Shown here piece after piece: positions 1 to 17,844 of a stretch of 24,700 nt of DNA. The stretch is from a virus. Below the pieces are notes generated by a model. It was not told the origin of the DNA. It did no database searches and saw nothing but the letters and a program-made list of their open reading frames with translations. Where the stretch lies: the IMG/VR virus record IMGVR_UViG_3300030451_000049, positions 1 to 24,700 of that record. One strand, written 5' to 3'. Each line of letters opens with the position of its first letter. Within the stretch, counting starts at the first letter, position 1. Both the position numbers and the translations under genes were made by a program.

Positions 1-2
1 TG

Positions 3-1892
3 AAGGTTGGTTTGAAGCTTATAGATATAATGATTAATGCTGTTGGGATGGTAAAACTTTCTACTGTCAGATCAGGTAAACAAACAAAAACATATGTTGA
101 ATTTACACAAGGTACTATGGATTGGATAAAACGACAACGCAAAAATAGATTAGCTTGTTATCCATTGTATGAACCATGCGTAGAGCAACCGATTGATTGG
201 ACTAGCACAACAGAAGGTGGTTTTCATACAAAAAGACTAAGACATATCAAGGCAATCAAATCAAAAGACCTTACTTACCATGAAGAAGTAACAAAAAGAG
301 AACCAACAGCACTTTATACAGCACTGAATTGTCTTCAACAAACAAAGTGGGAGATAAATACAACTGTTCTAGATATTGCTCAAAGCTGTTGGGATAGAGG
401 TATAGAAGTAGGTTGTCTAATAGATGCTGAACCACTACCACAAACTCCAAAGCCATATGATATTGATACTAATGAAGACTCAAGATCTTGGTGGAGAAGA
501 GAAGAAGTATTAAGACATGATCAAAATGCACATGATCGTATGAAAAGGTATCAATGTATTATGTTGCTTGATACTGCTACCAAGTTTGCAGAAGAACCTT
601 TTTGGCACGTTACACAGGCAGATTTTACAGGCAGAATCTATTATGTTTCAGGTATTTTCAACCCACAAGGTAATGATTTAGCAAGGTCTTTACATAGATT
701 TGCAGAGGGTGCAGCAATAACAGATGAGAAAGCAAAGAATTGGTTAGGTATAGCAGGTGCTAACTCATGGGGTATGAGCAAATACAGTTATGAAGAACGT
801 ATTGAATGGTCTAAGACAGAAGGAGAAGCTTTAGCTAGGCAGATAGCAAGCAATCCAGAATCCTATATCAGTATATGGAGTAAGGCAGAAGAACCTTGGC
901 AGTTTCTTGCCTGGTGTCTGGACTTTAATGAGTTACTTGAAGAGGGATATGGCTATGTAAGCAAGCATCCTGTATTGCTTGATGGTACAAACAATGGATT
1001 TCAACATTTTGCAGCTATGTCTCTTGATGATAATCTTGCAGCAAAAGTAAACCTAAAAAACTATGATCAGGTGGAGGACTTGTATGAAGATGTTAAAGAT
1101 CAGGTAATAAAAGAGCTTCGTGATCTTAGTTATGAACAATGCCTAGCTGAAGATTGGTATAAGCATCACGAATTAATTACAAGAAAGATGATAAAAAAAC
1201 CTGTGATGATGATTCCGTACAGTGGTAAGACTTTTGGTATTGCAAGTGCTGTTCGGGATTACTTTGTAAGCAGTGATGAAGAGTTGTCCTGGGATAAAGA
1301 TTGTTTCTTACATAATCATTATCTTGCAAAAATTATAGAGAAAAGTGTAAATAATATCAGCCCTAAATGTATAACAGTAATGAAATATTTAACAGACATT
1401 GCAAGATGTTTTGGTCAAGAAGATAAAAATATATCATGGATTACACCATCTAATTTTTATGTAAAGCAGCAATATTACAACTTTAATATGAAAAGAATAC
1501 GCACCAAACTGCATACTAGCACTGTAAAGTTGTCACTTCTTACTGATACAAAGGAAGTTGATAAAAGAAAATCTACTCAGAGTTTTGCTGCAAACTTTGT
1601 TCATAGTTTAGATGCTGCTAATGTACATTTAGCATTAACAAAAAGTAAAGCTAGTGGTTTGAATCAGTTCTGTACAATACACGATTGTTTTGGTTCACCT
1701 GCTGCACATATTGAAGAGTTTATAAGTTATGTAAAAGAAAGTTTTGTTGATATGTATAGCAAGAATTTATTAGATGATTTATATCAGCAAGCAGTAAAAC
1801 AATTAGAGGATTCAAGCAAGCTACCCATACCACCAGACATAGGGGATTTTGATGTGTGTGAAGTTTTATTAGCACCATATGTGTTTAGCTAA
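3..1892 (+). CDS. T7-like single-subunit RNA polymerase, 5' truncated by the window edge
   Basis: DNA-directed RNA polymerase that transcribes the phage's own genes from phage promoters. The reading frame is open to the left edge, so the N-terminal domain is missing; about 630 residues remain against 883 in T7 gp1. Visible landmarks are a TGRIYYVSGIFNPQGND block matching the T7 palm segment, motif A DGTNNGFQHF with its catalytic Asp at 981-983 (T7 D537), the O helix IKKPVMMIPYSGKTFG with Lys at 1194-1196 and Tyr at 1218-1220 (T7 K631 and Y639), NFVHSLDAANV, and IHDCFG with the second catalytic Asp at 1683-1685 (T7 D812). The C-terminus ends YVFS where T7 has the FAFA foot. All catalytic residues are present, so it should be active. 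Any start codon inside the window would be artificial. Confidence 0.97.
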   Translation, partial: KVGLKLIDIMINAVGMVKLSTVRSGKQTKTYVEFTQGTMDWIKRQRKNRLACYPLYEPCVEQPIDWTSTTEGGFHTKRLRHIKAIKSKDLTYHEEVTKREPTALYTALNCLQQTKWEINTTVLDIAQSCWDRGIEVGCLIDAEPLPQTPKPYDIDTNEDSRSWWRREEVLRHDQNAHDRMKRYQCIMLLDTATKFAEEPFWHVTQADFTGRIYYVSGIFNPQGNDLARSLHRFAEGAAITDEKAKNWLGIAGANSWGMSKYSYEERIEWSKTEGEALARQIASNPESYISIWSKAEEPWQFLAWCLDFNELLEEGYGYVSKHPVLLDGTNNGFQHFAAMSLDDNLAAKVNLKNYDQVEDLYEDVKDQVIKELRDLSYEQCLAEDWYKHHELITRKMIKKPVMMIPYSGKTFGIASAVRDYFVSSDEELSWDKDCFLHNHYLAKIIEKSVNNISPKCITVMKYLTDIARCFGQEDKNISWITPSNFYVKQQYYNFNMKRIRTKLHTSTVKLSLLTDTKEVDKRKSTQSFAANFVHSLDAANVHLALTKSKASGLNQFCTIHDCFGSPAAHIEEFISYVKESFVDMYSKNLLDDLYQQAVKQLEDSSKLPIPPDIGDFDVCEVLLAPYVFS

Positions 1893-1900
1893 ACAAATGC

Positions 1901-2056
1901 GTGACAAGTAATTTATCTACGGTACCATCAGTGATACATCCAATATGGATGCAATTAAAAGAAACCTTAAAAGAAAAATTAAATGATCAAGTCAGAACCA
2001 ATGAACATCACAACACCAGTGTGTCAATTTCAATTTGCATGGCTGGTAGAACCTGA
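1901..2056 (+). CDS. possible small ORF (51 aa, GTG start) between RNA polymerase and SSB
   Basis: A GTG-initiated frame fills the 90-base gap after the RNA polymerase and runs 74 bases into the SSB gene in another frame. The product would contain the stretch PSVIHPIWMQLKETLKEKL, which looks protein-like: a short hydrophobic start followed by an amphipathic charged helix. No ribosome-binding site is visible and I recognise no homologue. In its favour, genes here are otherwise packed with almost no spacing. Against it are the weak start codon and the overlap. It could be spurious. Confidence 0.27.
   Translation: MTSNLSTVPSVIHPIWMQLKETLKEKLNDQVRTNEHHNTSVSISICMAGRT
1938..1950 (+). repeat. short perfect inverted repeat upstream of the SSB gene
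   Basis: ATCCA-ATA-TGGAT forms a 5-bp perfect stem with a 3-base loop, 33 bases before the SSB start. It may be a small hairpin or an operator-like site. It is short enough to arise by chance in AT-rich DNA. Confidence 0.25.
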
Positions 2057-2609
2057 TACAAAATTTGACCCTGCTGGCATTTGGCAAGTCGAGTGTCTAA
2101 TTGATCCAGAAAAATCACAAGAAATTGAAGAGCAATTAACAGCTTATTTAGAAAGATGGAAGGCTCAACTTAAATCTGCTAATCCTCAAAAAAAATACAA
2201 GTTAGCACCCATGCAATGGGAATATACGGAAGTTGATGGCAAGCCATTTTTTAAAATAAAAAGCAAATTAAAAGCTACTGTTACATATTCAGATGGCACT
2301 GTCAGAAAAAACAGACCACCAGCTTTATTTAAAGCAGATGGTGTGCCAATGTCTGAAGATGAAAAACAAGCTGTAAACAAATGTGGTCCTGGTACAACAG
2401 GTCAGGTTAACTTGCGTTGCAAAGGATGGGAGAACCCTAGCTTTGGTGTCGGGGTAACTATTCAACCAGAAGCTGCAATCATTCATAACCATGTCGAGTA
2501 CACAAAAACCGCACAAGCCTATGGCTTTGAAACAGAAGAAGCAACTATCGAAGAAGAAAAGCCCAAAGCGAAAGCAGGGTTTGAAACAGTCGGAGCAGAC
2601 GAATTTTAG
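1983..2609 (+). CDS. single-stranded DNA-binding protein, T7 gp2.5-like
   Basis: Coats ssDNA during replication and recombination. The 208-residue product is slightly shorter than T7 gp2.5 (232). The N-terminal half (TTPVCQFQFAWLVEPDTKFDP...WQVECLID) resembles SSBs of marine T7-like phages. The C-terminus is glutamate-rich (EEATIEEEKP) and ends VGADEF: an acidic tail closed by an aromatic residue is the gp2.5 feature that contacts other replisome proteins. Position between RNA polymerase and endonuclease I matches T7 order. An internal ATG at 2001 gives a product six residues shorter and is equally plausible; neither start has a clear Shine-Dalgarno. The last about 120 bases are overprinted by the endonuclease gene. 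Confidence 0.85.
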   Translation: MIKSEPMNITTPVCQFQFAWLVEPDTKFDPAGIWQVECLIDPEKSQEIEEQLTAYLERWKAQLKSANPQKKYKLAPMQWEYTEVDGKPFFKIKSKLKATVTYSDGTVRKNRPPALFKADGVPMSEDEKQAVNKCGPGTTGQVNLRCKGWENPSFGVGVTIQPEAAIIHNHVEYTKTAQAYGFETEEATIEEEKPKAKAGFETVGADEF

Positions 2610-2970
2610 AAGTAAGTTTGAAGCTGCAATAGCAGCTACATTACAAGCAAATAAAGTTCCTTTTACCTATGAAACACTTGATGTTAGCTACCAAATCAGT
2701 TGCATTTATAAGCCTGATTTCATCCTTGACAACGGCATATGTATTGAAACTAAGGGCTTCTTCTCAAGGGAGGACCGCAGAAAACATCTTGCTATCAAGA
2801 CGCAAAATCCCACATTAGAGATCAGATTCTGTTTTCAAAACAGCAAAGCAAAATTGAGTCGTGGCAAAAGAAGTTTAACCTATGGTGCTTGGGCCACTAA
2901 GCATGGGTTTCTTTGGAGTCATGGCTCAATACCCACAGAATGGATGAATGAAAACCAGAGAAAAAATTGA
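2491..2970 (+). CDS. endonuclease I (Holliday junction resolvase), T7 gp3-like
   Basis: Structure-selective nuclease that cleaves branched DNA before packaging and helps degrade host DNA. The core lines up with T7 endonuclease I: FRSKFE (E44), TYE (E61), KPDF (D76), IETKG (E86 and K88), DRRKHL, and a YGAWATKHGF...PTEW ending. All metal-binding acidic residues and the catalytic lysine are present. The upstream extension is very lysine-rich (KKKSPKRKQG) and is read in a different frame over the acidic SSB tail. The start is uncertain: ATG at 2491, ATG at 2521, or TTG at 2581 just after an AGGG. T7 has about 16 residues before FRS, which favours one of the later starts. The gene ends beside the primase gene. 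Confidence 0.93.
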   Translation: MSSTQKPHKPMALKQKKQLSKKKSPKRKQGLKQSEQTNFRSKFEAAIAATLQANKVPFTYETLDVSYQISCIYKPDFILDNGICIETKGFFSREDRRKHLAIKTQNPTLEIRFCFQNSKAKLSRGKRSLTYGAWATKHGFLWSHGSIPTEWMNENQRKN

Positions 2971-3067
2971 CAACGCTAGACAGAGAATTAAAGAACTCGA
3001 ATGTCTTATCAAACATTGGGAGAGAGATGACGCAAAGCAAGTATGTCAGAAAAGAACCCTGCCCTGA
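2948..3067 (+). CDS. small charged ORF (39 aa) bridging endonuclease I and primase
   Basis: An ATG-initiated frame in a third phase overlaps the endonuclease end by 23 bases and the chosen primase start by 41 bases. The product begins MKTREKIDNARQRIKELE and is predicted to be one amphipathic, highly charged helix with no cysteine motif or signal. I recall short MKTREx-type helical proteins in other phage genomes but cannot assign a function. It fills bases that would be non-coding if the primase starts at 3027, and so supports that start. Confidence 0.42.
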   Translation: MKTREKIDNARQRIKELECLIKHWERDDAKQVCQKRTLP

Positions 3068-4631
3068 GTGTGGCAGCAAAGATAACCTAGCCATCTATGA
3101 TGATGGTCATGGTTACTGTTTTGGTTGTGGCTACACGCAGCAACCACAGAAAGATAAACCCAGAAAATCTTTTGTTAAATCAGTGAAGAAACCATTACTT
3201 AAATTTGTTACACCAAAAGCATTACCTAAACGTGCAATCACAAAAGAAACCTGTGAACTATTTAATTACGGAACATCTGAACATAATGGTCAGCCAGTAC
3301 AAGTTGCTACCTATGAAGACAAATTAGGTAGACAGGTTGCACAGCATATAAGATTTCAGAACAAAAAATTTATTTGGCTTGGTGATGTAGGAGATCTACA
3401 ACTATGGGGTCAAAGATTATGGAGACAAGTTAATACAGGTAATATGTTTGTCACTATTACAGAAGGAGAGATTGATTGTATGTCAGTCTCACAAGCACAA
3501 AATAACAAGTACCCTGTAGTAAGTTTACCTTCGGGATCACAGTCAGCTAATAAATATATAGCTGCAAATCTGAAATGGTTATCTCAATTTGTACGGATAG
3601 TAATTTGTTTTGACAGTGACGAGCCTGGCATGGTTGCTGCCGAAAAAGCAATTAAAATCTTACCTCCTGGTAAGGCAGCAATATGTAGATTACCTAGAAA
3701 AGACGCTAATGAAATGCTCATCGCAGGTGAAGGGGAGGAACTTAGAGATCTGCTATGGAAAGCAACACCTGTTAGACCAGATGGCATCCTTAACGCATCT
3801 AACCTCTGGACAGAACTAACAAAAAAAGGCAGTAACAGTATCTGTTCTTTTCCTTTCCCAGAATTAGATAAGTTCTGTAAAGGGTTTCGTAAACAACAGA
3901 TGCTATGTATAGCAGCAGGTAGTGGAACAGGTAAGTCAACAATATGTCGTGAACTTGCACATCACTTTATGAAGAATAATCTGACCGTAGGTTATATAGC
4001 TCTTGAAGAATCGGTACAAAGAACAATGCAGGGAATACTCGGTGTAGAGATGAATAAACCCCTGCATCTTGAGGATAATGTAGAAGAAACAGAAGGGTTG
4101 AGGCAATCATTTGACAGATTGTTTGGTACAGGAAAACTATTCTTGTATGATCACTTCGGATCTATTGATCCAGATAGATTAGTCGAACAGATACAGTATC
4201 TTGCAACAGCAGAAGGTGTAGATGTTGTTATCTTGGATCATTTAACAATAGTTGTTTCTGGTATCAGCGATTTAGATGAGAGAAGAGCTTTGGATGTGGT
4301 CTGTACAAAGCTTAGACAGGTGGTTGAATCAACTGGTATAGGTTTGATTATTGTCTCTCACTTGCGTAGACCAGAAGGCAAAGGACATGAGGAGGGTAAT
4401 AAGGTTAGTCTTAATCATCTGAGATCAAGCCATTCAATAGCCCAACTATCTGACTTGGTAGTGGCCTGTGAAAGAAACCAGCAATCGGAAAGCTATGCAG
4501 AAAGAGCAGAACTACAGTTAAGAGTATTGAAGAATAGACACACAGGAATGACAGGGCCAGTAGATAAATTATTGTATGACGAAAAGACAGGAAGACTTGT
4601 AGTACCTATGGAAACTTATTTCGGAAACTAA
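3027..4631 (+). CDS. bifunctional DNA primase-helicase, T7 gp4-like
   Basis: Hexameric replicative helicase with a fused primase. From an ATG at 3027 the product is 534 residues, with a GGGAG ribosome-binding site four bases upstream. An in-frame TTG at 2967 would add 20 residues and is less likely. The N-terminal C4 zinc ribbon has C12, C15, C31 and C34. The TOPRIM primase shows TEGEID (E146) and FDSDEPG (D196, D198). The RecA-like helicase shows Walker A GSGTGKST (K303), Walker B VVILDH (D404), a SHLRRPEGKGHEEG segment and LSDLVVACERNQQ. T7 gp4 ends in an acidic tail closed by Phe that docks DNA polymerase. Here the protein stops at about VVPMETYFGN, without that tail. The exonuclease start overlaps the stop by one base. 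Confidence 0.96.
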   Translation: MTQSKYVRKEPCPECGSKDNLAIYDDGHGYCFGCGYTQQPQKDKPRKSFVKSVKKPLLKFVTPKALPKRAITKETCELFNYGTSEHNGQPVQVATYEDKLGRQVAQHIRFQNKKFIWLGDVGDLQLWGQRLWRQVNTGNMFVTITEGEIDCMSVSQAQNNKYPVVSLPSGSQSANKYIAANLKWLSQFVRIVICFDSDEPGMVAAEKAIKILPPGKAAICRLPRKDANEMLIAGEGEELRDLLWKATPVRPDGILNASNLWTELTKKGSNSICSFPFPELDKFCKGFRKQQMLCIAAGSGTGKSTICRELAHHFMKNNLTVGYIALEESVQRTMQGILGVEMNKPLHLEDNVEETEGLRQSFDRLFGTGKLFLYDHFGSIDPDRLVEQIQYLATAEGVDVVILDHLTIVVSGISDLDERRALDVVCTKLRQVVESTGIGLIIVSHLRRPEGKGHEEGNKVSLNHLRSSHSIAQLSDLVVACERNQQSESYAERAELQLRVLKNRHTGMTGPVDKLLYDEKTGRLVVPMETYFGN

Positions 4632-5362
4632 TGACTTTACTTATTGACGCTGATTGGCTTATCTATTCTTCATGCTGTGCCTGTGAACAGGACATACAGT
4701 GGGATAGTAACCTACACACACTTCATGCAGATGAAAGAGATGTACATGAAATGGTTGATGGCAGAGTTGCACATTATCAAACCATTGCTGAAGGTGATAA
4801 GAATGTTGTTATGTGCTTTACTGAGTATCCAACATTTAGACATACAATATATCCAGAATACAAAGCTAATAGAAAACACAAAAGAAAACCTTTAGGTCTT
4901 CGTAAAATTATTGAAGGGGTAAGAGAAAGATATACATCTGAAAGTTATGCAGGTTTAGAAGGTGATGATGTGATGTCTATTCTTGCAACATCAAAAAAAT
5001 ATGACAACCCAATAATAGTTTCAGTTGATAAGGACATGAGATCTGTACCATGCACACTGCTTGCAGGTGATGACATGGAGCTTATAACTAAACGTAAAGC
5101 TGATAGACATTGGATGATACAAGCTCTTACAGGAGACAGTACTGATAATTACTTTGGTATTGATAAAGTAGGGCCAGTAACAGCAGAAAAGATATTAGGT
5201 GAAGCTAAAACACTTGAACAGATGTGGGAGAAAGTAGTAGAAGCTTATGAAAAAAAGAAATATAACTTTGCTGATGCTGTTCTTAATGCACAGCTTGCAA
5301 GGATACTAAGAGATGGAGACTTTGACTTTGATACTGGTGAAGTATCTCTCTGGACTCCATAA
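4631..5362 (+). CDS. 5'-3' exonuclease, T7 gp6-like (FEN family)
   Basis: Removes RNA primers and degrades host DNA to recycle nucleotides. The 243-residue product (T7 gp6 is 300) carries the FEN acidic clusters: LIDAD (D6, D8), GLEGDDVM (E110, D112, D113), SVDKDMR (D133, D135) and GDSTDNYFG (D169, D172), followed by a helix-hairpin-helix KVGPVTAEKIL. Translation is probably coupled, because its ATG overlaps the primase-helicase TAA as TAATG. In T7, DNA polymerase lies between gp4 and gp6; here nothing does. The gene ends the replication module and is followed by a hairpin. Confidence 0.95.
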   Translation: MTLLIDADWLIYSSCCACEQDIQWDSNLHTLHADERDVHEMVDGRVAHYQTIAEGDKNVVMCFTEYPTFRHTIYPEYKANRKHKRKPLGLRKIIEGVRERYTSESYAGLEGDDVMSILATSKKYDNPIIVSVDKDMRSVPCTLLAGDDMELITKRKADRHWMIQALTGDSTDNYFGIDKVGPVTAEKILGEAKTLEQMWEKVVEAYEKKKYNFADAVLNAQLARILRDGDFDFDTGEVSLWTP

Positions 5363-5368
5363 AAAAAC

Positions 5369-5405
5369 ACCAACAACGCAGTAGCATGGGCTGTTGGTAT
5401 TTCTT
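5369..5405 (+). terminator. probable intrinsic terminator after the replication genes
   Basis: ACCAACA (5369-5375) pairs perfectly with TGTTGGT (5392-5398) across a 16-base loop, flanked by an A-run on the left and ATTTCTT on the right. After one mismatch the A/T flanks can extend the stem. The T-tract is imperfect and the loop is long, so termination may be partial. It lies directly after the exonuclease stop and before the structural promoter region. Confidence 0.5.
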
Positions 5406-5430
5406 AGTTGCCTGGATAAGCATATCAACC

Positions 5431-5459
5431 TTATCACAGAAATTATATACTGCTATACT
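5431..5459 (+). promoter_or_regulatory. host-type extended -10 promoter ahead of the structural block
   Basis: TTATCA (5431-5436), a 17-base spacer, then TGC-TATACT (5451-5459): four of six -35 matches, a TGn extension and five of six -10 matches. It lies in the largest intergenic gap of the window (5363-5503), 44 bases before the next ATG. A separate TTGACA at 5472 lacks a good -10 at a usable distance. The sequence is AT-rich, so chance matches are possible. It is a sigma70-type, not a phage-RNA-polymerase-type, signal. Confidence 0.42.
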
Positions 5460-5503
5460 TTATTCTATAAATTGACATATACTAAATATAAATCTTATTA
5501 ATC

Positions 5504-5707
5504 ATGCCATCTGAAAAATTACCAATAATTACAGATGAATTGATTTTTGCCTTAGATCAAATCTTTCCTAATCGTCATCCTGATTTGTCTTTATCTGATA
5601 GAGAGGTATGGTATAGAGCAGGGCAAAGGTTTGTTGTTGATTATTTAATTGAACAACAGGCAAGACAAAAAGACACCATGCTCACTGAATCAGTCTTGGA
5701 GAATTAG
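5504..5707 (+). CDS. conserved-looking small protein of unknown function (67 aa)
   Basis: First gene of the structural block. The product is acidic and helical, with a compact middle DREVWYRAGQRFVVDYLIEQQ that reminds me of a short protein found upstream of the portal in other marine T7-like phages; I know no function for it. It has no signal peptide, membrane segment or metal motif. The start is preceded by TAATC with no Shine-Dalgarno. Two bases separate its TAG from the next ATG, so it is probably co-transcribed with the portal and may be a head-assembly accessory (inference). Confidence 0.72.
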   Translation: MPSEKLPIITDELIFALDQIFPNRHPDLSLSDREVWYRAGQRFVVDYLIEQQARQKDTMLTESVLEN

Positions 5708-5709
5708 CC

Positions 5710-5943
5710 ATGTGCGTTGGAAGACCGCCATCCCCACCACCTTTACCAGAAGCTAGGCCAACACCACCAAAGCCTGAGAAGACTGCGGAAAATGTTGTTG
5801 TTGGTACAAATAGACTTTCTCAAAATCAAACAAGCGGTAGAAAAAGAACAGGGCAAAGGCAAAGCAGAGCAAGAAGACTAGGTACAGCTATGTTGAGAAT
5901 ACCTTTGAATCCTGATCAAAGTACATCTGACTTGAGGTATTAA
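5710..5943 (+). CDS. proline-rich, basic small protein (77 aa), unknown function
   Basis: Begins MCVGRPPSPPPLPEARP, a proline-rich unstructured segment with Cys at position 2, and continues into a basic Gly/Arg/Ser-rich tail (SGRKRTGQRQSRARRLGTA). It appears intrinsically disordered and has no recognised domain. A GGAGA eight bases upstream of the ATG may act as ribosome-binding site. It lies between two other small genes directly ahead of the portal, which suggests a virion or head-assembly role (inference). The MC start is shared with the next gene and the gp14-like protein. Confidence 0.7.
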   Translation: MCVGRPPSPPPLPEARPTPPKPEKTAENVVVGTNRLSQNQTSGRKRTGQRQSRARRLGTAMLRIPLNPDQSTSDLRY

Positions 5944-5945
5944 TT

Positions 5946-6290
5946 ATGTGTTTTTTCGGAGGAGGTGCAAGAGCAGCAACACCACCAAAAACTACTTTCG
6001 ATGATTCTCCACCTGTTGTAACTGGTATGCAAACTGGTGTTGATAATCCTGTTGATACAGCAAAAGTAACAGAAGAACTAAAGATCAAAAGGATGGCGAA
6101 AGAAGGTATGAGTAATCCTGGTGACTCTCTCAACATTGCAGGTGTAACAAAAAAAAGTGGTAGTCTGGGTGCTGTAGCAAGAAATAAACGCAGTGCTAGG
6201 CTTAGATCAGGAGTCTCAAGAGGACCAAATAAACCATCAAAAGCTCAGAAGGCTGCTGCTGCAAGGAAAGCTATGAGATCTAAACGATAA
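5946..6290 (+). CDS. MC-GGG N-terminal, basic C-terminal small protein (114 aa), unknown
   Basis: Starts MCFFGGGARAATPPK and ends in an Arg/Lys/Ala-rich tail (KPSKAQKAAAARKAMRSKR). The middle is polar and probably disordered. A GAGGT seven bases upstream of the TAATT-ATG junction may be the ribosome-binding site. The stop is immediately followed by the portal ATG with no spacer. I recall MC-plus-glycine starts on small virion-associated proteins near the portal in many marine podoviruses, but the role is unknown. The basic tail could bind nucleic acid (inference). Confidence 0.72.
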   Translation: MCFFGGGARAATPPKTTFDDSPPVVTGMQTGVDNPVDTAKVTEELKIKRMAKEGMSNPGDSLNIAGVTKKSGSLGAVARNKRSARLRSGVSRGPNKPSKAQKAAAARKAMRSKR

Positions 6291-7874
6291 ATGGAATACT
6301 CAACACAAGGACAAACAGCAGGTGGCAGATACGCACAACTACAAAGTGCAAGATCTACCTTTGATAGAGAAGCAAAAGAATCTTCTAAACTTACAATTCC
6401 TAGTTTGATACCAGAGAGTACAACAGGTACAAGAGCAAAGATCAAAACACCCTTTCAAGCTGTAGGTGCTAGAGGTGTAAATAGTCTTGCATCTAAACTA
6501 TTATTTGCTTTACTACCACCATCAACTGCCTTTTTCAAACTTAGTATTGATAGTCTTGAATTGTTGAAGCAAGGACAGGAAGGTTTAGAAACAGAAATAG
6601 ATAAAGGATTACGAACAATAGAAACAGCTTTGATGAATGAGATAGAGATCTCTAATGACAGAGTTGCAATGTTTGAAGCACTGAAGCATCTGATCGTTGG
6701 AGGGAATGTTCTTCTCTATCTCACAGATGATGGACTGAAAGTATATCCACTATCAAAGTTTGTATGTAAAAGAGATGCAGTAGGTAATGTATTAGAAATT
6801 ATTACACAGGAATCAGTCAACCCTAATGCACTGTCACCAGAGTTCTTAGAACAGATCAAGAAGAAAGAGAACTATGACGAGAAGACAATGGATAGTGACC
6901 TTGATATATACACATATGTCAGAAGAGTAAATGATGACTTTATGTGGTATCAGGAATGTAAGGGAGAAAAGATACCAGGTACTGATGGCAGATCAAAGGT
7001 AGAAGTATCACCTTGGATTACTTTGAGATTTGTAAGAATTGATGGAGAAGATTATGGAAGGGGTTATGTAGAAGAATACAGAGGAGACTTGATCAGTCTT
7101 GAAGCTTTGATGCAAGCAATCATAGAAGGTGCAGCAGCATCAGCTAAGACTATATTCCTTGTAAATCCTAATGGTGTAACCAGAGCAGCAACACTAGCCA
7201 AAGCTCCTAATGGTGCAATAAGAGAAGGAAGTGCAGCAGATATTTCTGTCATGCAAGTTGGTAAGGGAGCAGATTTCAATGTATCTTTCTCTGCAATACA
7301 ACGTATTGAATCAAGACTTGAATATGCTTTCCTTATGGCAAGGTCTGTACAGAGAGATGCAGAGAGAGTAACAGCAGCAGAAGTTACGATGATGGCTAAT
7401 GAATTAGAGAACAGTCTTGGTGGTATCTATTCCATACTTACACAGGAGTTTCAACTGCCATATCTAAAACGTAGGATGCATATGCTTGTACGTTCTGGTA
7501 AAGCCCCAAAACTACCAGATAGAATAGTCAAACCCAAGATCGTAACAGGTGTTCAAGGGCTTGGTCGTGGTAATGATCGCAATAAGCTTGTTGAATTTAT
7601 TGGAACGGTTTCACAAGCTTTAGGTCCAGATATTATGAGACAGTACATGAATGTAGATGAAGCCATAAAACGTCTGGCAAATTCAATTGGCATAGATACT
7701 GCTAACCTAGTAAAGACACAAGAAGAGATACAGGCAGAGATGGAAGCGATGCAACAGCAGCAGCTTATCCAACATCTCGGACCTGCTGCTCTTGGATCAC
7801 CATTGCTTGATCCACAAAAAAATGCAAATGCACAACAACTAACGGAGGAATCTGATGCCAACCAAGAAACCTAG
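6291..7874 (+). CDS. portal (head-tail connector) protein, T7 gp8-like
   Basis: Dodecameric ring at the unique capsid vertex through which DNA is packaged and ejected. The 527 residues match T7 gp8 (536) in length. Recognisable portal-type segments are the N-terminal helix with LIPESTTGTRAKIKTPFQAVGARGVNSLASKL, the NVLLYLTDDGLKVYPLSKFV strand region, RGYVEEYRGDLISLEALMQ, and RVTAAEVTMMANELENSLGGIYSILTQEFQLP near residue 370. The C-terminus is glutamine-rich (EEIQAEMEAMQQQQL), typical of portal barrel or tail ends. It starts directly on the preceding TAA with no spacer. Its last 20 bases overlap the next small ORF. Confidence 0.96.
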   Translation: MEYSTQGQTAGGRYAQLQSARSTFDREAKESSKLTIPSLIPESTTGTRAKIKTPFQAVGARGVNSLASKLLFALLPPSTAFFKLSIDSLELLKQGQEGLETEIDKGLRTIETALMNEIEISNDRVAMFEALKHLIVGGNVLLYLTDDGLKVYPLSKFVCKRDAVGNVLEIITQESVNPNALSPEFLEQIKKKENYDEKTMDSDLDIYTYVRRVNDDFMWYQECKGEKIPGTDGRSKVEVSPWITLRFVRIDGEDYGRGYVEEYRGDLISLEALMQAIIEGAAASAKTIFLVNPNGVTRAATLAKAPNGAIREGSAADISVMQVGKGADFNVSFSAIQRIESRLEYAFLMARSVQRDAERVTAAEVTMMANELENSLGGIYSILTQEFQLPYLKRRMHMLVRSGKAPKLPDRIVKPKIVTGVQGLGRGNDRNKLVEFIGTVSQALGPDIMRQYMNVDEAIKRLANSIGIDTANLVKTQEEIQAEMEAMQQQQLIQHLGPAALGSPLLDPQKNANAQQLTEESDANQET

Positions 7875-8007
7875 ACAAAGAGATGAAGAAGGAAAGTTTG
7901 TACCTGCAAAAGCAGTAGTAAGCAAACTTGGTGTGAATGATGAACCAAAACCAAATAAACCAAAGGTGGTCGAAACTAAAAATGGTCGTACACTAACTTA
8001 TAGTTAA
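7855..8007 (+). CDS. small basic ORF (50 aa) overlapping the portal end
   Basis: Preceded by a strong GGAGGA ribosome-binding site (7844-7849) five bases before the ATG, inside the portal gene. The product begins MPTKKPRQRDEEGKFVPAKA and ends NGRTLTYS. It is charged, proline- and lysine-rich and probably disordered. There is no recognised domain. The clear ribosome-binding site, a rarity in this genome, and its exact fit into the portal-scaffold gap argue that it is real. It may be a head-assembly accessory (inference). Confidence 0.62.
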   Translation: MPTKKPRQRDEEGKFVPAKAVVSKLGVNDEPKPNKPKVVETKNGRTLTYS

Positions 8008-8016
8008 CAAAATATT

Positions 8017-8826
8017 ATGACTTCATCCCAGGTAAATGTTACCGAGACACCCCCTATGTCTCGTCAAGACTTAGAAACTCTTGCAAAAAATGAAACTGAT
8101 GAGAACGGTCTTATCTTAGGAAAGTTTAAATCAGTAGAAGATCTAGCTGCTAGTTACAAAGAACTTGAAGGTAAGCTAGGTGCAGCTACAGAAGAAGATC
8201 AGGCTGAAACTTCAGAACAGGAAGAAACTGAAACAACAGAATCTGACTTTGATGCTGAAGAATATTATGGAGATGGACTTGCTTCTGTATTAGAAGAAGT
8301 CGGTATTGATCCACAGGAAATCTCTAACAGGTTTGCAGAGACAGGTGAGATCAATGATGACGATTATACAAAGCTAGGAGAAGCAGGTTTTTCTAAACAA
8401 GTTATCGACACCTATCTTGATGGATTAAGAAATGGTGGTGTAACAGGAGAAGATATTGCTTCTGCTCAGATACAAGGTATAAAAGATTCTGTCGGTGGTG
8501 ATGATAATTACAGTAAGATGGTGGCATGGGCTGTTGACAATCTCCCTGCCAATGAAGTTAATGAATTTAATTCTTTAACAGAAACAGGAAATGCAACTGC
8601 AATAAAATTTGCAGTACAAGGTCTTTATTCTCAATACAATAATGCTATGGGTGTTGAACCAAACTTAGTAACAGGTCGTGCTTCTCAAAGTGGACCTGCA
8701 CCATTCAGATCCACAAATGAGGTAGTTACCGCTATGTCAGATCCACGCTATGGTAAAGATGTCACATACACCGAAGATGTTCAAAGACGTTTAGGTAATA
8801 GTGATGTATTTAACACTGGTCGTTAA
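8017..8826 (+). CDS. capsid assembly scaffolding protein, T7 gp9-like
   Basis: Temporary internal core around which the capsid shell assembles; lost before maturation. The 269 residues (T7 gp9 is 307) are strongly acidic, with a Glu/Asp/Thr/Ser-rich low-complexity stretch at about residues 56-85 (TEEDQAETSEQEETETTE). An N-terminal GLILGKFKSVEDLAASYKEL segment is characteristic of scaffolds of marine T7-like phages. The C-terminal part is helical and ends SDPRYGKDVTYTEDVQRRLG. Position between portal and capsid supports the call. In T7 the capsid gene follows directly; here six small ORFs intervene. No Shine-Dalgarno; the ATG is preceded by TT. Confidence 0.92.
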   Translation: MTSSQVNVTETPPMSRQDLETLAKNETDENGLILGKFKSVEDLAASYKELEGKLGAATEEDQAETSEQEETETTESDFDAEEYYGDGLASVLEEVGIDPQEISNRFAETGEINDDDYTKLGEAGFSKQVIDTYLDGLRNGGVTGEDIASAQIQGIKDSVGGDDNYSKMVAWAVDNLPANEVNEFNSLTETGNATAIKFAVQGLYSQYNNAMGVEPNLVTGRASQSGPAPFRSTNEVVTAMSDPRYGKDVTYTEDVQRRLGNSDVFNTGR

Positions 8827-8828
8827 TT

Positions 8829-8975
8829 ATGGCTAACAAACCAACCAACCCAGAATTGTATTCAAGGGTAAAGGCAGAAGCAAAAAAGAAGTTTAGAGTC
8901 TATCCTTCTGCTTATGCTAATGCCTGGTTGGTTAGAACTTATAAGAAACGTGGTGGAGGTTATCGTAAAACTTAA
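8829..8975 (+). CDS. small basic protein (48 aa), AYANAWLV family
   Basis: First of six small ORFs between scaffold and capsid. The product contains PELYSRVKAEAKKKF, RVYPSAYANAWLVRTYKKRGG and little else: a two-helix, very basic domain. I recall this pattern from phage and viral proteins grouped under DUF5872, but the family number is from memory and unverified. The function is unknown; a nucleic-acid-binding or virion role is inference. Junction with scaffold is TAA-TT-ATG, and with the next gene TAA-TC-ATG. Confidence 0.7.
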   Translation: MANKPTNPELYSRVKAEAKKKFRVYPSAYANAWLVRTYKKRGGGYRKT

Positions 8976-8977
8976 TC

Positions 8978-9100
8978 ATGCCTTATTCTAAAAAACAAAT
9001 GAAGATCGCTAGAGTTGCAGAACCTAGAGATAAAATCACAAGAGAAGATCTTATGATTCTTCGTAAATCTAAAAAGAAAAAGAAAAATGGCAAAGCTTAA
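8978..9100 (+). CDS. very small lysine-rich protein (40 aa), unknown
   Basis: The product reads MPYSKKQMKIARVAEPRDKI and ends in a lysine run (KSKKKKKNGKA). I remember similar short proteins with a K-x-R-RIA-x-x-A-x-P-x-D-x-I pattern from other phages, without known function. Start follows the previous stop by two pyrimidines. The end overlaps the next gene by 14 bases. The length is near the limit of confident calling, but the syntenic packing supports it. Confidence 0.6.
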   Translation: MPYSKKQMKIARVAEPRDKITREDLMILRKSKKKKKNGKA

Positions 9101-9239
9101 TCTTAGCCAGATGAAAAAGCTGAAAGCACATTCAGTTCATCACACACCTAAACACATGAACCTTATGAAGAAGCTTATGCGTGAAGGTAAATCATTTAAA
9201 GCTGCACATACTGCTGCACAAAAAGAAGTAGGCAAATGA
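9087..9239 (+). CDS. small basic histidine-rich protein (50 aa), unknown
   Basis: Starts inside the lysine run of the previous ORF and overlaps it by 14 bases. The product has two helices around HSVHHTPKHMNLMKKLMREG and SFKAAHTAAQKEVGK. The HHTxKHM...M..G.SF..AH..A...VG pattern is one I recall from several tailed phages, including cyanophages, but its role is unknown. The histidines might bind metal, although no paired cysteines are present. It ends with an ATGA overlap to the next ORF, suggesting coupled translation. Confidence 0.66.
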   Translation: MAKLNLSQMKKLKAHSVHHTPKHMNLMKKLMREGKSFKAAHTAAQKEVGK

Positions 9240-9400
9240 TTTTTAAAGCAACTCATTTATTTTCAGCAAACGGAGTAACAAAGCCTTATGCTCCTGTCAT
9301 GTCTTTAAAGAAATTTGATGATTCAAATTGTTACGAAGTAATGATAGAAAATGGTAATACATTTTATGCAAATGAATTTCAACTTGAAAAATTAAAATGA
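9236..9400 (+). CDS. small beta-rich protein (54 aa), unknown
   Basis: Coupled by ATGA overlaps on both sides. Unlike its neighbours it is not strongly basic. It alternates hydrophobic and polar residues (FKATHLFSANGVTKPYAPVM, YEVMIENGNTFYANEFQLEKL), suggesting a small beta-barrel such as an SH3-like fold; this is only a pattern impression. There is no recognised family. The two tight overlaps are the best evidence that it is translated. Confidence 0.6.
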   Translation: MIFKATHLFSANGVTKPYAPVMSLKKFDDSNCYEVMIENGNTFYANEFQLEKLK

Positions 9401-9651
9401 GTCTTACAAGATGGTTCAAAGAAAAGTGGGTAGATGTTAAAACAGGTAAACCCTGTGGAAGACAGAAGGGTGATCAACGTGGCTACCCTGCTTGCAGACC
9501 ATCAAAAAGAATTAGTAGTAAAACACCAAAGACTACCAGTGAAATGAGTAGTAAAGAAAAGGCTAGATTTAAAAGAGAAAAGACAGGTCCAAGAAAAATT
9601 AGTTATCAACATAGAAGAAATAAAAACAGAAAAAAGTTAAGACTTGCATAA
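9397..9651 (+). CDS. small basic cysteine-containing protein (84 aa), GYPACRPSKR type
   Basis: The product begins MSLTRWFKEKWVDVKTGKPC, continues GRQKGDQRGYPACRPSKRI and ends with a long Lys/Arg tail (QHRRNKNRKKLRLA). Two cysteines in a WVDVxxGKPCGR...GYPxC arrangement recur in small phage proteins I remember from T4-like and podo-type marine phages; function unknown. The charge suggests DNA or RNA binding (inference). The ATG overlaps the previous stop as ATGA. Confidence 0.74.
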   Translation: MSLTRWFKEKWVDVKTGKPCGRQKGDQRGYPACRPSKRISSKTPKTTSEMSSKEKARFKREKTGPRKISYQHRRNKNRKKLRLA

Positions 9652-9654
9652 GAG

Positions 9655-9663
9655 TGTTATATT
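9655..9663 (+). promoter_or_regulatory. weak extended -10-like sequence before the last small ORF
   Basis: TGT-TATATT resembles an extended -10 (TGn plus five of six TATAAT matches), 25 bases ahead of the ATG at 9689 in a 37-base spacer. No good -35 is found 16-18 bases upstream. It could give an extra transcript over the capsid gene, or be chance in AT-rich sequence. Confidence 0.22.
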
Positions 9664-9688
9664 TTAATTAACTGCTTATCTTTCCTTT

Positions 9689-9952
9689 ATGTCTAAGGGA
9701 GTATCTCTTACCAAAAAAGACAAAGATCCCACTGGGGGTCTTACTGCTTCTGGCCGTAGGAAATACAACCGAGCAACAGGTGGAAACTTGCAAGCTCCTG
9801 TTACTAAAAAGACAGGTCTTTCTCCTAGACAAAAAGCAAGAAGAAAATCTTTTTGTGCAAGAATGTCGAAGGTAAAAGGACCGTTAAAGAAAGATGGTAA
9901 GTTAACACGCAAAGCTCTTGCACTACGCAAGTGGAATTGCGGATCAGTATAA
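9689..9952 (+). CDS. small basic protein (87 aa), KDPTGGLTASGR family
   Basis: Contains KDPTGGLTASGRRKYNRATGG, then LSPRQKARRKSFCARM and a C-terminal KLTRKALALRKWNCG. I associate the DPxGGLTAxGRxKY pattern with a phage and viral family annotated as DUF6321; the number is from memory. The protein is strongly basic with two cysteines and probably binds DNA or packs in the virion (inference). It is the last ORF before the capsid leader and is preceded by 37 non-coding bases, so it may have its own transcript. No Shine-Dalgarno is seen. Confidence 0.74.
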   Translation: MSKGVSLTKKDKDPTGGLTASGRRKYNRATGGNLQAPVTKKTGLSPRQKARRKSFCARMSKVKGPLKKDGKLTRKALALRKWNCGSV

Positions 9953-9981
9953 ACTCAACAAAACGAAAATCTAAATATCAA

Positions 9982-10042
9982 AAGTGCCTGATGCGTCAGA
10001 TAACACTTGAGAGAACAGACAGTAGTGAAGTTAGTTTCTCAA
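9982..10042 (+). promoter_or_regulatory. capsid-gene leader with two overlapping hairpins
   Basis: Within the non-coding stretch 9953-10071. Hairpin 1: AAGTG (9982-9986) with CACTT (10004-10008), enclosing CTGA-TGCG-TCAG (9988-9999). Hairpin 2: TTGAGA-G-AAC (10007-10016) with GTT-TCTCAA (10034-10042), nine pairs and one bulged G. The two share bases 10007-10008, so they may compete. Possible roles are mRNA stabilisation or processing, a phage promoter region, or control of capsid translation. No T-tract follows either stem, so they are not terminators. Confidence 0.45.
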
Positions 10043-10060
10043 ATTATTAATCAATCCAAA

Positions 10061-10066
10061 GGAGTT
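10061..10066 (+). promoter_or_regulatory. strong ribosome-binding site of the capsid gene
   Basis: A canonical Shine-Dalgarno (GGAG core at 10061-10064, extended leftward by AA) lies about seven bases upstream of the capsid ATG. Most other genes here have none, so this site marks the capsid gene for high expression. Confidence 0.75.
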
Positions 10067-10071
10067 TTATT

Positions 10072-11058
10072 ATGGCTAACGCCACAGTATCTCGCCTTGG
10101 TCTGGTAAACAATAGTGGAACAGACTTTGAAGCTCTGTTTCTGAAAGTGTTCTCTGGTGAAGTTTTAACAGCCTTTGCTAGAAACAACATCTTCAACGAG
10201 CAGCTTCATTCAGTTCGCACTATTACTTCTGGTAAATCAGCACAGTTCCCTGTTACAGGTGCTGCAACTGCTGCATATCACACACCAGGAACACCATTAG
10301 TTGGTGCAAACCAGATCTTGGCAAATGAAAAAATTATCAGTATAGACGACCTCCTTATATCACAGGCCTTCGTGAGCAACTTAGATGAACTCATGAACCA
10401 CTATGATGTTAGGGCTACATATGCTGATGAATTAGGAAAGGCTCTCGCAAAAACATACGATCAAAACGTAGCGAAGGTAATTGCTAATGCTTCAAGAGCT
10501 TCAACAACTCTTACAGGTGGAGCAGGTGGATTAGTTTCTACTCTTGCTTCTGGTAATACAGCTTCAGCAAACGTAACTGGTGATGAGTTAGCAGCAGCTA
10601 TCTATGACATCGCACAAGCGTTTGATGAAAGAGACATCCCTCCAACAGATCGTTTCTGTGTACTACCACCTGCTGAGTACTACAAGTTAGCTGAATCAGC
10701 TACAAGAACTGTAGATGTTGACTTCAACCCAGGTGGAAATGGTTCATTTGCATCAGGTCGTGTACAACAGATTGCTGGTATTCCAGTGATGATGAGTAAC
10801 AACGTACCTCAGTCAAACGTATCATCAAACCCAAGTGGTGCGAACAACACCTACTCAGGTGACGATAGTAAAACTATTGGTCTTGTCTTCCACAAGTCTG
10901 CTGTTGGTACAGTAAAACTTATGGATATGACAACTGAGATCTCTGGTTCTGACTACGGAATTATGTATCAAGGTACATTAATGGTTGCTAAGTATGCTCT
11001 TGGTCATGGAATCCTAAGACCAGAATGTGCAGCTACTATTAAGCTATCTGCTTCTTAA
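10072..11058 (+). CDS. major capsid protein, T7 gp10A-like
   Basis: Forms the icosahedral shell. The 328-residue product (T7 gp10A is 344) has the T7-type HK97-fold layout: N-terminal ALFLKVFSGEVLTAF, TSGKSAQFPVTGAATAAYH in the E-loop region, ISIDDLLISQAFVSNLDELM, and an A-domain ending with MMSNNVPQSN...GLVFHKSAVGTVKLMDMTTE. The SGKSAQFPVTG...AYHTPG region resembles capsids of marine cyanopodoviruses as I recall them. It is preceded by the best Shine-Dalgarno in the window and followed by a strong terminator. No slippery sequence for a T7-style 10B frameshift product is apparent near the end. Confidence 0.97.
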   Translation: MANATVSRLGLVNNSGTDFEALFLKVFSGEVLTAFARNNIFNEQLHSVRTITSGKSAQFPVTGAATAAYHTPGTPLVGANQILANEKIISIDDLLISQAFVSNLDELMNHYDVRATYADELGKALAKTYDQNVAKVIANASRASTTLTGGAGGLVSTLASGNTASANVTGDELAAAIYDIAQAFDERDIPPTDRFCVLPPAEYYKLAESATRTVDVDFNPGGNGSFASGRVQQIAGIPVMMSNNVPQSNVSSNPSGANNTYSGDDSKTIGLVFHKSAVGTVKLMDMTTEISGSDYGIMYQGTLMVAKYALGHGILRPECAATIKLSAS

Positions 11059-11070
11059 TTTCAATTTATA

Positions 11071-11101
11071 GGGTATCTTATTATTAGATACCCTTTTTTT
11101 T
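11071..11101 (+). terminator. strong intrinsic terminator after the capsid gene
   Basis: GGGTATCT (11071-11078) and AGATACCC (11086-11093) form a perfect 8-bp stem around a 7-base loop, followed by eight T residues (11094-11101). The position immediately after the capsid gene corresponds to T-phi of T7, which limits transcription of downstream tail genes. Confidence 0.93.
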
Positions 11102-11107
11102 ATAGCC

Positions 11108-11182
11108 ATGTATCATTCAACAAAGAAAAAAAAGAAGAAGAAAAAAATGGGTGGCAGAGAGTCACTTAAAATAAAAAAGTAA
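11108..11182 (+). CDS. possible poly-lysine micro-ORF (24 aa)
   Basis: Reads MYHSTKKKKKKKKMGGRESL and ends KIKK, filling the gap between the capsid terminator and tail tube A. More than half of the residues are lysine. I recall similarly tiny MY-x-x-KKK-MGG proteins in marine phages, but a poly-A stretch would also give this by chance. The ATG is preceded by two pyrimidines like other starts here. Function unknown. Confidence 0.42.
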   Translation: MYHSTKKKKKKKKMGGRESLKIKK

Positions 11183-11188
11183 AAAACC

Positions 11189-11797
11189 ATGACTGTAGCT
11201 GCAACCACTGAACTAGAAAGTATCAACATTATGTTAGCTGCAATAGGAGAAGCTCCTATTAACAGTCTTACAGGTACACTTCCTGTTGATGCTCGTCTAG
11301 CACAGTCAACTCTTACGGAAGTAAATAAAGAAGTTCAATCAGAAGGATGGTCTTTTAATACTGAAATAGATGTCACTCTTACAAGAGATGGATCTAATCA
11401 AGTATCACTTTCAACTGATATTTTAAGAGTTGATCCTAATACTCATCATCACACTACGATTGATGCAATACAGCGTGGTTTAAAGCTATATGACAGGTTA
11501 AATAATAAGTATGAATTTGATGAAGATCTCATCTGCACTGTTGTCTATTTCAGAACCTTTGATGAAATACCAGAACCTGCAAGAAGGTATATAACAATCA
11601 AAGCTGCTCGTATCTTTGTAGATAGGTTAGTCAGTGATGATGGATTAAGAACATATACACAACAAGACGAAGTAAGAGCAAGAGCTATATTAATGGAAAC
11701 AGATTTAGCTAATGGAGATCATAATCTTCTAAGGGGAGATCCAAGTCTTACAAGTGTCTTTGATACTTATTCACCAGCAAACGCATTAATTAGATAG
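11189..11797 (+). CDS. tail tubular protein A, T7 gp11-like
   Basis: Gatekeeper ring joining the portal to the nozzle and carrying the fibre attachment site. The 202 residues match T7 gp11 (196). Family hallmarks visible are ELESINIMLAAIGEAPINSL at the N-terminus, ARLAQSTLTEVNKEVQSEGW SFNTE, then the strand DGSNQVSLSTDILRVD and a C-terminal PARRYITIKAARIFVDRLV. The start ATG follows six bases after the micro-ORF stop. Two bases separate its TAG from tail tube B. Confidence 0.95.
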   Translation: MTVAATTELESINIMLAAIGEAPINSLTGTLPVDARLAQSTLTEVNKEVQSEGWSFNTEIDVTLTRDGSNQVSLSTDILRVDPNTHHHTTIDAIQRGLKLYDRLNNKYEFDEDLICTVVYFRTFDEIPEPARRYITIKAARIFVDRLVSDDGLRTYTQQDEVRARAILMETDLANGDHNLLRGDPSLTSVFDTYSPANALIR

Positions 11798-11799
11798 CT

Positions 11800-14457
11800 A
11801 TGGCAGTAGTATCAAGAGCAATTCCTACATTGCTAAGAGGAATCTCACAAGCTGCTGATTCAACAAAACAACCTGACCATGCCGATATACAGGACAATGC
11901 CAATAGCAGCCCTGTAAGAGGACTTGTAAAGAGGTCTGGCACACAGTTTGTTACAACTCTAAGCTCTTCTACAGTAGGGAATGTTCACATACAAACTATC
12001 AACAGAGATATAAATGAAAGATATGTAGCAATATTTAGTAATGGTAATGTCAAAGTATATGAATTGGATGGAACAGAAAGGACCGTAAACAAACCTGATG
12101 GTACAAGTTACTTAAACACATCTGATCCCAGAAGTGTAATTAAGACTGTAACCATTGCTGATTTTACTTTTGTAGTTAATACAAGTATTACAACAGAAAT
12201 GGACTCATCTCTTAGTCCAGGTAACATCACACAAGCTGTAGTTTTTATAAATGCAGTTTCAGATAAAACAACATACTCAGTCACTGTAGATGGTGTCACT
12301 GTTACTGATAACACTGCTTCTGACTCTACACTTAGTACCACACAGGTAGCTAGCGACCTTCAGTCTGGTTTAAATTCTGGTTTGACAGGTTTCACTATTG
12401 CAAGAAATGGTCCTGTAATACATATAAAAAAGAATGATGGCAGTAATTTTTCTATTGATGGTAATGACACTCAAGGCAATACTCAACTAACAGTAGTTAA
12501 AGATTCAGTACAAAGATTTACTGACCTACCAACTGTTTCACCTAATGGTTATGTTGTTGAAGTGAAAGGAGATGAATCAACTAACTTTGATAATTATTAC
12601 GTCAAGTTTGTAACTAATAATGGTGGAGCTTTTGAAGAAGGGCAGTGGGAAGAATCAGTAGAAGCAGGTATACCTTTTAAATTTAATTATGACACTATGC
12701 CACACGTTCTCATACGTCAGGCTGATGGTGATTTTAGGTTTGCAAGAGTTGATGGAGACACCTATACAGATTTAAATATTGCTGGAACATATAGCCAATC
12801 AGGAACTACAGTAACTGTTACTTCTGCTAATCATGGATTGGCAAGTAGTGATTCTGTAAAATTTGATTTTACTTCTGGTAATGCTGTCGATGGTACTTTT
12901 ACAATTACAGTTACAAACGCAAACACATTTACTTTTACAGCAGCAGGTTCTTTAACGACAAGTGGAAATGTTGCTTTTGGTAAAGTAAACAATTCAACAT
13001 TACCTAAGTGGGGAGAAAGAACTGTTGGTGATTTAGATTCAGCACCTAACCCATCTTTTATAGATGGCAAAATCAACAACGTCTTCTTCTTTAGAAACAG
13101 ATTAGGTTTTTTAACTGATGATAACGTAGTGTTGACAAGGGTTTCAGAATTTTTTAACTTCTTTCCAGAAACAGTTTTGTCTGTTATAGATTCAGATCCT
13201 ATTGATGTAGGTGCTTCTCATACTAAAGTTGCTATTCTTAAACACGCAGTAACTATGGGAGAACAGTTGGTTTTGTTCTCTGATCAAACACAGTTTGTAT
13301 TAACATCATCATCTGATGCTCTGACACCTAAAACAGCTAACGTAGTTGTTGCAACTGAATTTGAATCCAGTGACCAGGCACAGCCTGTAGGTTCTGGTTC
13401 TTCTATCTACTATCTAACAAAGAAAGGATCTTTTGCAGGTGTAAGAGAATATATAACACAGGAAAATGTAGCGATTAAAGATGCTAGCAATATTACTGTT
13501 CATGTACCAAGACTGATACCAAGTAATATTTTTAAATTAGCTGTTTCTACCAATGAAGATGTTTTAGTTTTATTAGGTACTGATAATCCAAATAAGTTAT
13601 ATATAAATAGATGGTTGTATGGTGATGGTTTTAAAAAGGTTTTAAATAGTTGGTCTACTTTTACTTTTAATTCTGCCAAGTCAATAAAGAATATAGATTT
13701 TGTTGGCACTGATTTGTTTATGGTGGTAGAAGAAGCTAATGGTACAACTTTAGAAAAAATACCGTTTGAAGCAGAGTTTAGAGAACCTAATTCAGAATTT
13801 GAGTTTCATCTGGACCATAAGGTAACTGAAGCAACCACTGGTGTTTCTATTGCTTATAACTCTGGCACTGATGTAACTACATTTACTTTGCCTTACAGAT
13901 TAAATGCCAGTATGTCAGTTGTAGGTCGTTACTTAGCCAATGGGGAAACAAGTACCTTTGTTGATACTCAAGGTAATACAAAAACATTGAAGCCTGGTCA
14001 GGTTGTACAAACAACAAATACAACAAACGGATCTACATCAACCATTACAGCTAATGGTGACTTTAGAAACAGTAAGGTAATTATTGGTGAGCCATACCTC
14101 ATGCACTATAGGTTTAGTCAACAAAGACTTACTGAAGGTAGTAATGCAGGTGAGATGATCAGTGGTCGCTTACAACTGCATCATTTTTATATCAAGTTTG
14201 AAGATACAGGATTTTTTAAAGTAGAGGTTACTCCTGAGAATAGAGATACATCTACTCATAAATTTACTGGTCGTTTCTTAGGATCTTCTTCTGCTGCTAT
14301 TGGTCAGATTAATTTAGAAACAGGTACGTTTAGAGTGCCAATAATGTCTAGAGCAGATAGAGTAGATATAGATGTAAAAAATGACACGTTCTTGCCTACT
14401 CAATTATCCAGTGCTGAATACGAAGCTATGTTCCATATGAGGAGTAGGAGGGTGTAA
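11800..14457 (+). CDS. tail tubular protein B (nozzle), T7 gp12-like, with inserted domains
   Basis: Hexameric nozzle forming the distal tail tube. The N-terminus (VSRAIPTLLRGISQAADSTK...HADIQDNANSSPVRGLVKRSG) and centre (FIDGKINNVFFFRNRLGFLTDDNVVLTRVSEFFNFFP, then HAVTMGEQLVLFSDQTQFVL) are diagnostic. At 885 residues it is about 90 longer than T7 gp12 (794). Two Ser/Thr-rich beta segments look inserted: about residues 150-232, and about 329-397 (SGTTVTVTSANHGLASSDSV...TNANTFTFTAAGSLTTSGN), a repeat type common in phage adhesins. The C-terminus ends SSAEYEAMFHMRSRRV. The stop overlaps the next ATG, and an AGGAGG ribosome-binding site sits inside its last codons. Confidence 0.94.
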   Translation: MAVVSRAIPTLLRGISQAADSTKQPDHADIQDNANSSPVRGLVKRSGTQFVTTLSSSTVGNVHIQTINRDINERYVAIFSNGNVKVYELDGTERTVNKPDGTSYLNTSDPRSVIKTVTIADFTFVVNTSITTEMDSSLSPGNITQAVVFINAVSDKTTYSVTVDGVTVTDNTASDSTLSTTQVASDLQSGLNSGLTGFTIARNGPVIHIKKNDGSNFSIDGNDTQGNTQLTVVKDSVQRFTDLPTVSPNGYVVEVKGDESTNFDNYYVKFVTNNGGAFEEGQWEESVEAGIPFKFNYDTMPHVLIRQADGDFRFARVDGDTYTDLNIAGTYSQSGTTVTVTSANHGLASSDSVKFDFTSGNAVDGTFTITVTNANTFTFTAAGSLTTSGNVAFGKVNNSTLPKWGERTVGDLDSAPNPSFIDGKINNVFFFRNRLGFLTDDNVVLTRVSEFFNFFPETVLSVIDSDPIDVGASHTKVAILKHAVTMGEQLVLFSDQTQFVLTSSSDALTPKTANVVVATEFESSDQAQPVGSGSSIYYLTKKGSFAGVREYITQENVAIKDASNITVHVPRLIPSNIFKLAVSTNEDVLVLLGTDNPNKLYINRWLYGDGFKKVLNSWSTFTFNSAKSIKNIDFVGTDLFMVVEEANGTTLEKIPFEAEFREPNSEFEFHLDHKVTEATTGVSIAYNSGTDVTTFTLPYRLNASMSVVGRYLANGETSTFVDTQGNTKTLKPGQVVQTTNTTNGSTSTITANGDFRNSKVIIGEPYLMHYRFSQQRLTEGSNAGEMISGRLQLHHFYIKFEDTGFFKVEVTPENRDTSTHKFTGRFLGSSSAAIGQINLETGTFRVPIMSRADRVDIDVKNDTFLPTQLSSAEYEAMFHMRSRRV

Positions 14458-17842: not shown

Positions 17843-17844
17843 TT

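Follow-up and report, generated by a model that had tools for sequence, protein, structure and literature searches.

Paired absence of the DNA polymerase gene and of the helicase docking tail in T7-like cyanopodoviruses of the MPP-C lineage

How does a phage with a T7-like replication module copy its DNA when the primase-helicase gene runs directly into the exonuclease gene and no DNA polymerase gene is found? The question is raised by the window studied here, a 24.7 kb stretch (positions 1-24,700 of IMG/VR record IMGVR_UViG_3300030451_000049) which is itself a fragment, a linear viral contig that is incomplete. Its replication region has the following features.

3..1892, + strand: single-subunit (T7-like) RNA polymerase, its 5' end cut by the window (PF00940, 5.4e-83)
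1983..2609, + strand: gp2.5-like ssDNA-binding protein (SSB) with acidic C-terminal tail ...GADEF (phrog_112, 1.4e-17)
2491..2970, + strand: endonuclease I, T7 gp3-like (PF05367, 4.1e-36; phrog_945)
3027..4631, + strand: T7 gp4-like primase-helicase (PF21268, PF13155, PF03796; phrog_239, 2.5e-168)
4629..4633, + strand: overlap of helicase stop and exonuclease start, TAATG, read directly from the sequence
4631..5362, + strand: 5'-3' exonuclease, T7 gp6-like (PF02739, PF01367; phrog_107, 1.3e-61)

The primase-helicase starts at an ATG (3027, MTQSKYV...) and its open frame extends back to a TTG at 2967. Its TAA (4629-4631) and the exonuclease ATG (4631-4633) have base 4631 in common, as the initial annotation had noticed. 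The T7 gene order on one strand and the single-subunit RNA polymerase, both recognized with Pfam and PHROGs, place the window in the Autographiviridae. Homologues of gp4, gp2.5, gp3 and gp6 of Escherichia phage T7 are present. Further downstream, positions 15473-17842 code an internal virion protein that contains a LysM domain and, near its carboxyl terminus, shows similarity to transglycosylase/endolysin families; in this region the counterpart from the closely related genome G005 differs.

The initial annotation referred to a report of marine cyanopodoviruses lacking a DNA polymerase gene. This lineage exists: it is MPP-C, described by Cai et al. 2022 (PMC9860041), whose cultured members infect Prochlorococcus MED4. 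By DNA and protein searches the window falls next to these phages, and it represents part of the genome of an MPP-C cyanopodovirus, within the T7-like phages. A helicase tree of 58 representatives groups it with the isolates P-SCSP1a and P-SCSP2 in one polymerase-less clade (support 100/100), and identity to P-SCSP2 reaches 93% in the capsid, 76% in the portal and 55% in the helicase, the latter being 64% identical to that of P-SCSP1a. This placement rests on the helicase tree, in which the short tail columns were included and should matter little, and on the identity table, while the published MPP-C tree is built from nine concatenated genes. P-SCSP1a-u and P-SCSP2 have the same order of RNA polymerase, SSB, (endonuclease), primase-helicase, exonuclease and portal genes, with no DNA polymerase. 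The window represents a subgroup distinct from them: its RNA polymerase is only 30-46% identical to theirs, its internal virion proteins differ, and it has an endonuclease I, for which there is no annotated gene in P-SCSP2. In the latter genome the gene at 35301-36251, listed as hypothetical, codes an antirestriction protein of the ArdC type that includes a zincin domain (PF08401, PF18818).

MPP-C phages are defined by a small genome of 37.3-37.9 kb without auxiliary metabolic genes. G005, which shares with the window blocks of 91-96% nucleotide identity, has 35.8 kb, and a reading of its ORF list showed no psbA, rnr, talC, hli, mazG or thyX. A 10 kb fragment of the uncultured phage MedDCM-OCT-S08-C159 (Jalkavirus) is also related, with 83.5% nucleotide identity to the window in the capsid region and a helicase 58% identical; its primase adjoins the exonuclease with a 4-base overlap and no polymerase is annotated. 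A search of bacterial genomes for relatives of the window, as a link to its host, gave no close relative and four distant matches only.

No match to family A polymerase was found in the window with profile HMMs, which bears out the initial reading that none of its ORFs carries family A motifs. Families C (PF07733) and B (PF00136, PF03175) and the PolA 3'-5' exonuclease domain (PF01612) gave no match in the window either. The window alone is weak proof of absence because it is a linear fragment with a truncated RNA polymerase gene and no terminase gene. The search was therefore carried to 54 records of the clade, which include two circularly closed genomes (G005, end overlap of 126 bp at 100% identity; G007, 169 bp at 99.4%) and the complete isolates P-SCSP1a and P-SCSP2. 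In six-frame translation the Pol A HMM was negative in all 31 MPP-C-type records of a first set, while being positive in 8/8 polymerase-encoding relatives, and in 23 further MPP-C records, several of them of 35-38 kb. The PolA exonuclease (proofreading) domain was found in 0/14 MPP-C records versus 5/5 polymerase-encoding controls, and families B and C in 0/12 MPP-C records. A polymerase elsewhere in the genome, which would have contradicted the initial annotation, is thus missing from complete relatives. The idea that a polymerase remnant persists was discarded, as near-complete MPP-C genomes have no PolA or PolA-exonuclease match.

Among 337 classified loci, 187 encode a polymerase and 150 do not; all of the 150 have an MPP-C-type helicase and all of the 187 have other types. 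In the helicase tree the loss of the polymerase falls on a single branch (support 100/100), and the clade above it holds every polymerase-less sequence. In polymerase-encoding relatives the DNA polymerase and small genes occupy the site between helicase and exonuclease. Such is the case in the T7-like pelagiphages HTVC031P and HTVC120P, whose replication module otherwise has the order of the window, with a helicase 46% identical and ribonucleotide reductase (RNR) genes downstream. The common ancestor of MPP-C lost the family A polymerase and the adjoining small genes from this site. The exonuclease now starts at -4, -1, +2 or +3 relative to the helicase stop in 144 of the 150 polymerase-less loci. 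The other six junctions comprise three inserts of a Mom-like gene, one zinc-ribbon ORF, one frameshifted helicase and one exonuclease start that could not be cleanly placed.

The inserted Mom-family DNA modification gene (PF25680, 3.1e-41 in L033) lies exactly between helicase and exonuclease, at 2153-2848 in L033, about 3058-3753 in L045 and about 10426-11121 in L046. The zinc-ribbon ORF (L055, about 4287-4520) resembles NrdR by eye. A small zinc-ribbon protein (PF22811, 1.6e-9) similar to the amino terminal domain of NrdR, the ribonucleotide reductase repressor, is coded upstream of the RNA polymerase gene in G005 (5312-5575 of the rotated genome, loci L100/L101). As these phages showed no RNR gene, such a protein might affect control of the host RNR.

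The missing gene has a counterpart in the helicase itself. T7 combines the gp5 polymerase with an acidic gp4 docking tail (...STDWSNDTDF), and neither of these two hallmarks of the T7-type replisome, the gp5-like family A enzyme and the tail, is found in the window or in MPP-C. The helicase of the window ends in a short, non-acidic sequence, ...GRLVVPMETYFGN, while those of HTVC031P and HTVC120P end in NDF. The tail was defined as the residues that follow the conserved TGRL motif, and the helicase was long enough in 334 of 337 loci. It ends in [DE]F in 71 of 81 distinct sequences from polymerase-encoding phages and in none of 39 from MPP-C, one of which (L064) is a frameshift. All tails of the first group have a net negative charge (median -3, range -12 to -1), and the median values of the second are a net charge of -1 and a length of 10 residues. 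A rank test gives p of about 3e-15, a value not to be taken at face value because related sequences were treated as independent. The SSB tail served as internal control: [DE]F is found in 85/87 distinct sequences from polymerase-encoding phages and in 50/51 from MPP-C. MPP-C has thus lost from its helicase the segment to which a T7-type polymerase is held, yet preserves the comparable tail of its SSB. In T7, removal of the gp4 tail reduces coupled synthesis without abolishing it. The negatively charged gp4 tails dock on patches of the T7 polymerase, and their deletion abolishes the cooperative binding of gp4 and gp5 at the fork (PMC8472574, PMC8835902).

The rule linking tail and polymerase has exceptions among polymerase-encoding phages. 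Helicase tails of the freshwater loci L076-L082 end in ...LPEELQ and that of HTVC011P in ...SSFDE, lacking the terminal F. The prophage of Devosia, one of the four distant bacterial matches, encodes a polymerase and has a tail ending in SDF, in agreement with the rule. A possible sister of MPP-C, on long branches, is HTVC011P, so that the change of the tail could be older than the loss of the polymerase; it may have come before, with or after that loss. As all polymerase-less sequences form one clade, the association amounts to a single evolutionary event and the sequence counts overstate its weight.

The proteins kept by MPP-C indicate how its DNA may be copied. The phage RNA polymerase, SSB, endonuclease I, primase-helicase and 5'-3' exonuclease are all maintained. 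Motif alignment finds the zinc ribbon cysteines, Toprim and Walker A motifs of the window helicase intact; the possibility that the P-SCSP2 group lacks the zinc ribbon of the primase was considered and dismissed, all four cysteines being present. Purifying selection acts on helicase, exonuclease and SSB, with dN/dS of about 0.07-0.16 (0.07-0.15 for the helicase versus its relatives). Conserved motifs and selection imply that the phage still does its own unwinding and priming. Within this module the exonuclease (4631-5362) and SSB (1983-2609) of the window are 83% and 73% identical to those of G005, while helicase and portal reach 98-100%; such uneven identities suggest recombination within the replication module.

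The helicase hexamer would unwind and prime the fork and, unless some undiscovered enzyme does so, a host polymerase would carry out synthesis, the helicase lacking the acidic [DE]F-ended tail with which T7 gp4 holds its polymerase. Initiation is probably driven by the phage, with a primer made by its RNA polymerase or primase, since no DnaA-box cluster was found. Host-type initiation at such clusters was rejected, the counts of DnaA boxes being no higher than expected from shuffled sequence. It is very likely that the window is an MPP-C fragment with ancestral polymerase loss whose fork combines the phage helicase-primase with synthesis by a host polymerase. Recruitment of a host enzyme, put forward in the initial annotation, is supported by the loss of the helicase tail, which does not single out the enzyme. 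Host Pol III with its sliding clamp appears somewhat likelier for elongation than Pol I, because a polymerase held by a clamp needs no helicase tail or tether for processivity. A search of the helicase, exonuclease and SSB of MPP-C for canonical clamp-binding motifs found none that is conserved. The latent period on MED4 lasts 12-15 h for MPP-C versus 6-8 h for MPP-B (PMC9860041); the slower kinetics fit a limited access to the host enzyme, other causes being possible. After the loss, the helicase could conceivably have evolved a new short carboxyl terminal element that contacts a protein of the host replisome, so that the fork would be a hybrid in which a phage ring helicase-primase drives host Pol III or Pol I. 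This is rather unlikely; candidate elements, such as VVPMETYFGN and IVYENDFADL, combine hydrophobic residues and phenylalanine.

The strongest rival, doubtful but still a reasonable possibility, is that host DNA polymerase I was recruited as direct substitute for the lost enzyme, which is of the same family. In its favour, RNA primers can be extended by Pol I, as happens when plasmid ColE1 replicates. It is a repair enzyme of low processivity, however, and the helicase lost, rather than kept, the tail to which a family A polymerase docks in T7. This substitution is the first option considered by Cai et al. (PMC9860041).

Their third option, a very divergent DNA polymerase that escapes recognition, is improbable. 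Several MPP-C ORFs are unannotated and the virion proteins are large, leaving some room for it, but in complete genomes, translated in six frames, the HMMs of families A, B and C have no match. Nor does the gene list of closed G005 leave an unassigned ORF that could plausibly be a polymerase: outside the virion genes the only one of at least 300 amino acids codes a 306-residue protein with a weak HTH match. The RNA polymerase shows no sign of conversion into a DNA polymerase, as T7 residues D537, K631, Y639, H784 and D812, which include the ribonucleotide gate, are all conserved in the window; with Tyr639 and the other catalytic residues in place, the idea that it doubles as DNA polymerase has no support. 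The loss of the docking tail also makes a hidden polymerase of the T7 type unlikely.

Dependence on a co-infecting phage that provides the polymerase, a satellite lifestyle, has a very low probability: nothing was found in its favour, the isolates of MPP-C, which were purified, grow on MED4 (PMC9860041), and complete MPP-C genomes have capsid, tail and terminase genes. That the contig is chimeric or deleted at 4631, the other outcome that would have undermined the initial annotation, is hardly credible, for although chimeras do occur in the set (the 56 kb contig G001, loci L097-L099, looks like one, a siphovirus-like tail module at 1-19500 being fused to an MPP-C genome at the fibre genes), the junction recurs in cultured isolates and in 150 polymerase-less loci that come from many metagenomes, 144 of which start the exonuclease between -4 and +3, so that an assembly fault does not explain it.

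The absence of the polymerase is not new as such, since MPP-C and the hypothesis that it uses a host polymerase were published in 2022 (PMC9860041). The helicase carboxyl terminus is not mentioned in the text of Cai et al. (PMC9860041) and was not found elsewhere in the limited literature searched. Its correlated change, read from sequence comparison, adds to the description of the lineage and supports the host-polymerase hypothesis. In viromes of the surface ocean MPP-C accounted for about 44% of the reads from cyanopodoviruses (PMC9860041), and marker surveys based on the polymerase miss this lineage. The paired loss, of the polymerase gene and of the tail by which the helicase would dock it, speaks against a T7-type polymerase hidden in these phages.
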